Source of the DNA: an uncultured Planctomycetota bacterium
GTDB lineage: Bacteria; Planctomycetota; Phycisphaerae; UBA1845; UTPLA1
Reading direction: 5' to 3'
Assembly (NCBI GenBank): GCA_900696465.1
Contig: CAADGE010000029.1
Location: forward strand, 1-64,000
DNA length: 64,000 bases
Position numbers and translations under genes: made by a program. The first letter of the stretch is position 1, and each line of letters begins with the position of its first letter. Shown here one piece after another: positions 1 through 15,441 of this stretch. Under the pieces are notes generated by a model that was not told where the DNA came from, did no database searches, and saw only the letters and a list, made by a program, of their open reading frames with translations.

Positions 1-131
1 TCCGGGCGTCAGCATTGACAATGATAATCTCGTGACCATCGAGTTCGATTGGGACGACTTCGAGTCGATCGAGCCAGTCCCGACCCCGCCGGCCTCCGAG
101 GAGGGAGGAGTGGATGCAACGCCCTCGATTG

Positions 132-13787: not shown

Positions 13788-14837
13788 CTAACCACGAAGG
13801 ATAACTTCCGCGTCGCCCCGTGCCTCGACCTGCCCGACGATAGCCGCATTTCGTACGCCGGCCTTCTCGAGCGCGGCGAGCGCCGGACCTGCACGGTCGG
13901 TTGGCAGAGAGATAAGCAGGCCGCCGGATGTTTGAGCGTCGCTGAGCACGCCCACGAGCGCGGTTTCCACGTTTTCACAGCAAAGGCGATGGCCGATGGA
14001 CTCAAGCGTGCTCTTGTGTGCCCGTGTCAGGACGCCGGAACGGGCGAGTTCGAGGGTCGGTCCGATGAGGGGTACAGCCGAGGCGACCAGCTCGATGGTG
14101 ACCTGCGAGGCGCTGGCCATTTCCCACGCGTGGCCGACGAGGCCGAATCCGGTGATGTCGGTAATGGCGTGGGCGTCGTAATCGCGGGCGACGATGGCAG
14201 CGGTTGCGTTCAGCGCGACCATGACATCGATCGTTTCGGACAGGTCCTGGGGTCTCATTTTGCCGGACTTGGCGGCGCTGGTCATGACGCCGGAACCGAT
14301 GGGCTTGGTGAGGATCAGTGCGTCGCCGGGCCGGGCGGCGCGATTGGTGAAGAACTTCTGCGGGTGCACGACGCCGGTGACGGCGAGTCCATACTTGATT
14401 TCCGTATCTCGGAGAGAATGGCCACCGAGGATGACGGCGCCGGCTTCGGCGACCTTGTCGGCGCCGCCGGCAAGGATGCGGCTGAGGATGTCGATCGGCA
14501 GGTCTTTGTCGGGATAGCAGACGATGTTCAGGCAGGTGATCGGCGAGGCACCGACGGCGTAACAATCGGAGAGACTGTTGGCCGCAGCGATCTGCCCGAA
14601 GATAAAGGGATCATCGACGAGCGGCGGGAAAAAGTCGGTGGTCTGCACGATGGCGAGATCATCGCGCAGTTTGTACACGCCCGCGTCGGAGAAGTGATCA
14701 GCGCCGATGAGCAGGTTGGGATGGTTTGCGGGAGGTAGGTCTCGCAGGACCTGCGAGAGCGCCCCGGAGGGGAGCTTCCCGGCTCAGCCGGCGCATGAGG
14801 CGTAGGCTGTCAGCTTGATCTCTCTGCCAGGTGCCAT
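13788..14837 (-). CDS. selD: Selenide, water dikinase SelD, itself a selenoprotein (in-frame UGA)
   Basis: SelD makes selenophosphate from selenide and ATP, the selenium donor for Sec-tRNA and selenouridine. Read from ATG 14837, the frame gives MAPGREIKLTAYASCAG, then UGA (14786-14784, codon 18), then AGKLPSGALSQVLRDLP and continues without a stop to 13788. With UGA as selenocysteine the protein has 349 residues, the usual SelD length. The UGA sits exactly where SelD proteins carry the catalytic Cys or Sec (CAG-U-A-KL motif). Glycine-rich ATP-binding segments (ILGGHSLRD, TDITGFGLVGHAWEM, SDAQTSGGLL) follow. A hairpin at 14740-14758 fits a bacterial SECIS. Read without recoding, the gene would be truncated to a GTG start at 14678 and would lack the active site. 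Confidence 0.93.
14740..14758 (-). promoter_or_regulatory. Bacterial SECIS element of selD
   Basis: On the coding strand TCTCGCAG, GTC and CTGCGAGA form a perfect 8-bp stem with a GUC apex. The apical G lies 33-34 bases after the UGA, inside the 16-37 base window known for bacterial SECIS elements. The core GCAGGUCnUGC closely resembles the E. coli fdhF SECIS loop that SelB binds. A second small hairpin (CCCC-TCC-GGGG) lies between the UGA and this stem. Confidence 0.85.
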
Positions 14838-14946: not shown

Positions 14947-15441
14947 CTACTTCGCCGCCATCATGGCTGCGAGGCGGCCTTCGACCTGGAGGAGGTACTG
15001 CTCGCCGGCCATCACCACGAGCTTGAGCAGTTCAGACATGGTGGCAACCTCTTCGACCTGTTCATCGACGAACCACTGGAGAAAGCTCCGTGTGGCGTAG
15101 TCTTTCTCCTTCTCGGCCTGGGCGACGAGGTCATTGATCTGCTTCGTGACCAGCAGTTCGCTGTCTACGGCAGCTTGGACAATCTGTCGTGCGGACTTGT
15201 AGTCCGACTTGGGCTTGTCGATCTTGTCGAGGATGACCTTGCCGCCGACGTCCTGGATGAACTTTGCGATCTTCAGGGCGTGACCGCGCTCTTCGTCGGC
15301 CTGTTCCATGAATCGCTTGGCAAAGACATGAAGGCCCATGTCCTCGAAGCAGTAGCTCATGGCCAGGTACTTGTGCGAGGCGAGCAATTCGTTGGCGATC
15401 TGCCCGTTGAGACTGGTTACCATCCGGCTGGAGATCATCAT
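14947..15441 (-). CDS. ftnA: Non-haem ferritin
   Basis: This 164-residue four-helix protein has ferroxidase residues in NELLASHKYLAMS (Glu near 18), EQADEERGHALK (Glu and His near 50-54) and AVDSELLVTKQI (Glu near 93). It should form a 24-subunit shell that oxidises Fe(II) and stores ferric mineral in the cytoplasm. The spacing fits prokaryotic FtnA rather than bacterioferritin, since no haem-ligand methionine is evident. It is transcribed alone, ending at the hairpin at 14879-14908. The start could be any of three nearby methionines (MMISSRM). No Fur box was recognised upstream. Confidence 0.9.
   Translation of the reverse strand: MMISSRMVTSLNGQIANELLASHKYLAMSYCFEDMGLHVFAKRFMEQADEERGHALKIAKFIQDVGGKVILDKIDKPKSDYKSARQIVQAAVDSELLVTKQINDLVAQAEKEKDYATRSFLQWFVDEQVEEVATMSELLKLVVMAGEQYLLQVEGRLAAMMAAK

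Follow-up and report, generated by a model that had tools for sequence, protein, structure and literature searches.

A UGA codon at the catalytic position of a planctomycetal selD gene is very probably decoded as selenocysteine

Introduction

Does an in-frame UGA in a selD-like gene of an uncultured Planctomycetota bacterium end translation, or is it decoded as selenocysteine (Sec)? The gene lies in a stretch of 64,000 nucleotides (hereafter the window), which belongs to contig C29 of a draft genome of 4.14 Mb (G000; 48 contigs, 96.8% complete). A preliminary description of this DNA had proposed that the reading frame passes through a UGA at codon 18 to give a full-length SelD protein of 349 residues, that this UGA occupies the essential Cys/Sec site of the enzyme, and that the organism should possess SelA, SelB and tRNA-Sec. 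We followed up this proposal through family models, solved structures, the genome from which the window derives, and the SelD genes of related bacteria.

Results

A SelD reading frame runs through the UGA codon

The coordinates given in the preliminary description, 13788-14837, are right; the gene is located on the minus strand, which that description had left out, and nothing comparable is encoded there on the plus strand. The reverse complement of the interval translates as MAPGREIKLTAYASCAG*AGKLPSGALSQVLRDLPP..., a frame of 349 codons with a single stop that is then open to its end (Table 1). The read-through product is a SelD protein: it scores 365.1 bits against TIGR00476 (cut-off 125) and 312 bits against PRK00943 (cut-off 299), contains the domains AIRS and AIRS_C, and finds its best PDB matches among solved SelD structures. 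In the alignment, the UGA codon within the motif CAG-U-AGKL falls on the catalytic Cys of PDB entry 3u0o (AGCGCK) and is followed by the conserved Lys, and Cys-containing SelD proteins (Cys-SelDs) carry their Cys at the position that matches codon 18. Both the 349-residue frame and the placement of the UGA at the essential site were thus described correctly at the outset, as was the consequence that standard gene calling would reduce the protein to 296 residues and lose the active site. The automatic call drops this segment not only here but also in much of the Planctomycetota, and the annotated start needs correcting.

The segment 5' of the UGA bears the signature of a coding sequence. When codons 9-17 were compared with those of 32 orthologues, 121 codon differences were synonymous and 33 non-synonymous, and codon position 3 held 126 of the 214 base differences; since the changes are mostly synonymous, we conclude that the region upstream of the UGA is translated. 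By eye, a TATAAT sequence is found within about 20 nucleotides before the selD ATG at 14837, with no obvious Shine-Dalgarno sequence after it; given the position of the TATAAT, the selD mRNA may be nearly leaderless. A consensus scan for a sigma-70 promoter in front of selD returned none. Just upstream of selD, and in the same orientation, is a ferritin-like gene (164 amino acids, recognized by eye; 14947-15441 of the window, minus strand).

Table 1. Positions of the selD features in the window and of other candidate selenoprotein genes in the genome
Feature	Position	Strand	Size and supporting evidence
selD, selenide water dikinase (selenophosphate synthetase)	13788..14837	(-)	349 aa, Sec at residue 18; translation, TIGR00476, AIRS/AIRS_C, PDB SelD structures
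In-frame UGA, codon 18, catalytic Cys/Sec position	14786..14784	(-)	Cys-SelDs have TGC/TGT here, every close orthologue read has TGA
Codons 1-17, 5' of the UGA, overlooked by ORF callers	14787..14837	(-)	coding constraint
ORF of standard caller, GTG start 14678, without active-site segment	13788..14678	(-)	296 aa; ORF call
SECIS hairpin UCUCGCAG-GUC-CUGCGAGA	14758..14740	(-)	8 bp, -11.0 kcal/mol, nucleotides 26-44 after the UGA; covariation, synonymous-codon control
Loop GUC at the tip of the SECIS hairpin, with the conserved core GGU	14750..14748	(-)	nucleotides 34-36 after the UGA (about +33..37)
AhpD-related candidate, INGCLY-U-MEAH	C26:17986-18540 (L154)		TIGR01926, 148 bits
ResA/TlpA-like candidate, FWGVG-U-PPC	C35, TGA at 339244 (L194)		family match, motif and hairpin only
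Peroxiredoxin-like candidate, FYRGYW-U-VSC	C48, TGA at 350300 (L172)		family match, motif and hairpin only

The genome encodes the machinery for Sec insertion

All three expected components were recovered from the genome that harbors selD. The selB gene (C48:395179; a frame of 711 amino acids, above the curated cut-off) is directly followed by selA (C48:397206; 522 bits), and a tRNA-Sec with the anticodon TCA is encoded at C5:113852 (70 bits). Within the 64-kb window itself, ARAGORN and Rfam (gathering threshold) detected nothing, and the SECIS element was not reported by Rfam.

A covarying SECIS hairpin lies downstream of the UGA

The bacterial SECIS model (bSECISearch, restated in PMC13188914) asks for a loop of 3-9 nucleotides, a stem of at least 4 bp, a G in the first two loop positions, a distance of 16-37 nucleotides from the UGA and an energy of -7.5 or lower. 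The preliminary description had suggested a search for such an element, and the hairpin listed in Table 1 fits this model in every respect, with a spacing near the upper end of the published range. Taken singly, the fold around it is unremarkable (z -1.24); the signal becomes visible by comparison only. We compared 47 distinct Sec-SelD sequences, drawn from several phyla: 91.2% of the hairpin cells are paired, both partners vary in five of the seven pairs, and the loop columns 37-38 (GU) are invariant, with column 36 mostly a G. The covariation score was 0.392; shuffles gave 0.151 (0/500), and no slid version of the hairpin exceeded 0.093.

One of the stem pairs links the last base of the codon preceding QVL with the first base of the codon following it. 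The combinations GCG..CGC, GCA..UGC, GCU..AGC and GCC..GGC occur at these codons, and the two bases are exact complements in 42 of the 47 sequences (summed tally). In keeping with this pairing, QVL is mostly followed by Arg and otherwise by Cys, Ser or Gly, with Gln at this place in two sequences. In our reading, the stem register would be shifted by one in the apparent exceptions of the type GCA..CGN (L033, L036, L038, L053).

We also held the peptide fixed, randomised the synonymous codons and compared the stability of the resulting windows. With the Sec-SelD classes defined by a QV/HV motif observed in the same data, the distal window of the 50 Sec-SelDs with the distal motif gave a mean z of -2.7 (p <=0.05 in 34 of the 50), as compared with -0.2 in other Sec-SelDs and about -0.25 in Cys-SelDs; the latter possess neither a proximal nor a distal hairpin by this control. 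A proximal hairpin, at nucleotides 9-23 downstream of the UGA, was rejected as the selD SECIS: only 59% of its cells pair, slid controls match its covariation, and its synonymous-codon z in this class is only -1.1.

These data bear on the view that the gene is a pseudogene, or that translation starts at the downstream GTG, so that the UGA is a genuine stop codon and the cell uses the shortened protein of 296 residues. A search from ATG, GTG or TTG to the next stop does yield a clean frame of that length. This view leaves unexplained, however, the purifying selection on codons 1-17 documented above, the position of the conserved catalytic motif ahead of the GTG, the conservation of the SECIS element and the presence of selB, selA and selC in the genome, and we regard it as very improbable.

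SelD is one of several candidate selenoproteins

A scan of 2.37 Mb (57% of the genome) for coding-like frames broken by one TGA and accompanied by a SECIS-like hairpin revealed, besides SelD, three candidates judged convincing from their family and on visual inspection (Table 1). More than 20 homologues in relatives share the TGA of the AhpD-related candidate. With SelD included, this bacterium would thus have no fewer than four candidate selenoproteins. The predicted SECIS loops of the three others are at +18 to +25, as opposed to +34 in SelD; this difference and a spacing close to the upper limit of 16-37 nucleotides in the published model count against the recoding of this selD. Separately, the AhpD-related gene is 99% identical to its copy in genome G001 and 93% identical to that in G014, while the corresponding values for SelD are only 74% and 65%, which suggests a recent horizontal transfer of the AhpD-related gene.

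The Sec machinery might have been retained for SelD alone, in a closed, self-serving loop. Two further uses were indeed rejected: no ybbB gene (selenouridine synthase) scored above the cut-off in the genome, which removes selenouridine as another destination of selenophosphate, and the matches to formate-dehydrogenase-like families in the genome contain no TGA, which removes a Sec-containing formate dehydrogenase. The three additional genes with in-frame TGAs, redox motifs and SECIS-like hairpins found in 57% of the genome, one of them with the TGA conserved among relatives, speak against such a loop, to which we accord little more than a nominal chance.

Still less credible is that UGA serves as a sense codon throughout the genome, for instance for Trp or Gly; nothing but the in-frame UGA itself favors this view. 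The genome encodes tRNA-Sec, SelA and SelB, and the 2.37 Mb yielded only a small number of TGAs that lie in coding-like frames together with a redox motif and a SECIS-like hairpin; they occupy the Cys positions of redox families.

The TGA codon is conserved among relatives

Matches to SelD were present in 75 of 81 genomes of the same genus, family and order. Exactly one TGA was found in each of the 56 best full-length matches (own sequence included; 54-100% identity), and in the 30 of these orthologues that were read it is always the same codon, embedded in [SN]CAG-U-AGKLP; this conservation excludes chance and also argues against a pseudogene. The named genomes closest by SelD are Phycisphaerae MAGs. 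Full-length matches from the same order at 44-48% identity have no stop and form long frames (528-769 amino acids), as would be expected of the N-terminal fusions known for Cys-SelD (PMC4561486). Across the phylum, SelD was detected in 164 of 246 genomes drawn from the Planctomycetota, mostly with one TGA among the matches listed. In a set of 41 genomes selB tracks SelD: three (G020, G026, G030) are devoid of either gene, and carriers of Sec-SelD have selB above the cut-off except for two, whose genomes are 75% and 80% complete. SelD was seen in none of 16 genomes from other orders of the same class, and mostly in the window's own order and in other classes of the phylum, a distribution which suggests that selenium use was lost in the rest of the class.

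The preliminary description had itself raised the possibility of a sequencing error. A single base separates TGA from TGC or TGT and the genome is a draft, so that an ordinary Cys-SelD could in theory have been misread or misassembled. Yet the same TGA occurs in independently assembled genomes throughout the order and the phylum, and it is accompanied by a covarying SECIS hairpin that is missing from Cys-SelDs; we therefore hold an error to be exceedingly unlikely. Read-through of the UGA by a near-cognate tRNA is conceivable in principle, but no catalytic residue would result from it.

The position of the SECIS hairpin differs between SelD lineages

In the other Sec-SelDs the hairpin resides in the proximal window (z -3.0), typically with its loop at +17..21. 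Among 26 further sequences, a partly independent set, the +34 hairpin was recovered in seven of the ten with a QV/HV motif, and a strong hairpin at +28 was found in L275, L282 and L283 as well as in L281, which is without the motif. With hairpins at +17..21, +28 or +34 according to lineage, the SECIS register differs between SelD lineages. In Planctomycetota families f55 and f83, the SelD loci L256, L258, L260, L261, L263-L267 and L269 have the in-frame TGA, and no hairpin that fits the bSECIS model follows it. The nine genomes sampled from this clade all encode tRNA-Sec, and eight of them contain selB above the cut-off; their SelDs possibly rely on a non-canonical SECIS.

Read jointly, these observations would mean that the SECIS has moved among at least three registers (about +17..21, +28 and +34) at one Sec codon in one protein family, that the +34 pairing dictates the residue after QVL, and that a clade of Planctomycetota has no recognisable bSECIS, an interpretation to which we give even odds. 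If it is true, the geometry of SelB on the ribosome tolerates a difference in spacing of about 16 nucleotides, or a second mode of recognition exists. The Sec-SelDs of the Planctomycetota offer a natural series of SECIS distances from one UGA, with which a SelB-dependent spacing rule can be tested. We found no description of such a register shift in the openly searchable literature, which is weak evidence of novelty; the shift and the clade without a recognisable SECIS are the only points that we consider mildly new.

Discussion

Our data support the reading of this selD as a UGA-recoded selenoprotein gene, and judging from sequence comparisons we put the probability that it is a bona fide one, with UGA 18 decoded as Sec through SelB and a SECIS element to give full-length selenophosphate synthetase, at roughly 0.97. 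Translation would begin at the ATG at 14837, and Sec-tRNA-Sec, delivered by SelB, would decode codon 18, SelB being recruited by the hairpin in the coding region whose loop lies about 33 nucleotides past the UGA. The full-length enzyme, with Sec as its catalytic nucleophile, would convert selenide and ATP into selenophosphate for SelA, and hence supply the Sec-tRNA for the synthesis of SelD itself and of the other selenoproteins. Sec insertion and catalysis, although predicted here, have very high prior support because the Sec-SelD family has been described (PMC1794560, PMC4561486, PMC13188914). That SelD requires its own product follows logically from the chemistry of the pathway, an old point that is general to all Sec-SelDs; the feedback loop proposed in the preliminary description would be hypothetical and not specific to this genome.

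Sec-SelD is a long-described and widespread bacterial selenoprotein (PMC1794560, PMC4561486, PMC13188914), described as ranking second among prokaryotic selenoprotein families in how widely it occurs (PMC13188914), and full sets of Sec insertion genes along with selenoproteins have already been published for Planctomycetes (PMC4807772). Since both are on record, the selD gene studied here adds to a known type. With the Sec-SelD/SPS2 proteins of the literature (PMC1794560, PMC4561486, PMC13188914) it shares the enzyme, the position of Sec, the presence of SelA, SelB and tRNA-Sec, and a bSECIS in the coding region just past the UGA; it differs in the location of the loop, which is about +33..37 here and +17..21 in most other Sec-SelDs sampled. 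The parts of these three papers available to us make no mention of its own planctomycetal order with regard to SelD. Measured against the bSECIS consensus (PMC13188914), the element conforms, at a spacing near the upper end and in a register that varies by SelD lineage. The study of planctomycete Sec machinery (PMC4807772) dealt with other isolates, and Sec-SelD and its SECIS are not described in the portion accessible to us. Cys-SelDs, including the long oxidoreductase-SelD fusions, are homologous enzymes, of which long stop-free versions occur in the same order; they differ from the gene in the window by a Cys codon in place of the UGA and by the lack of the SECIS hairpin.
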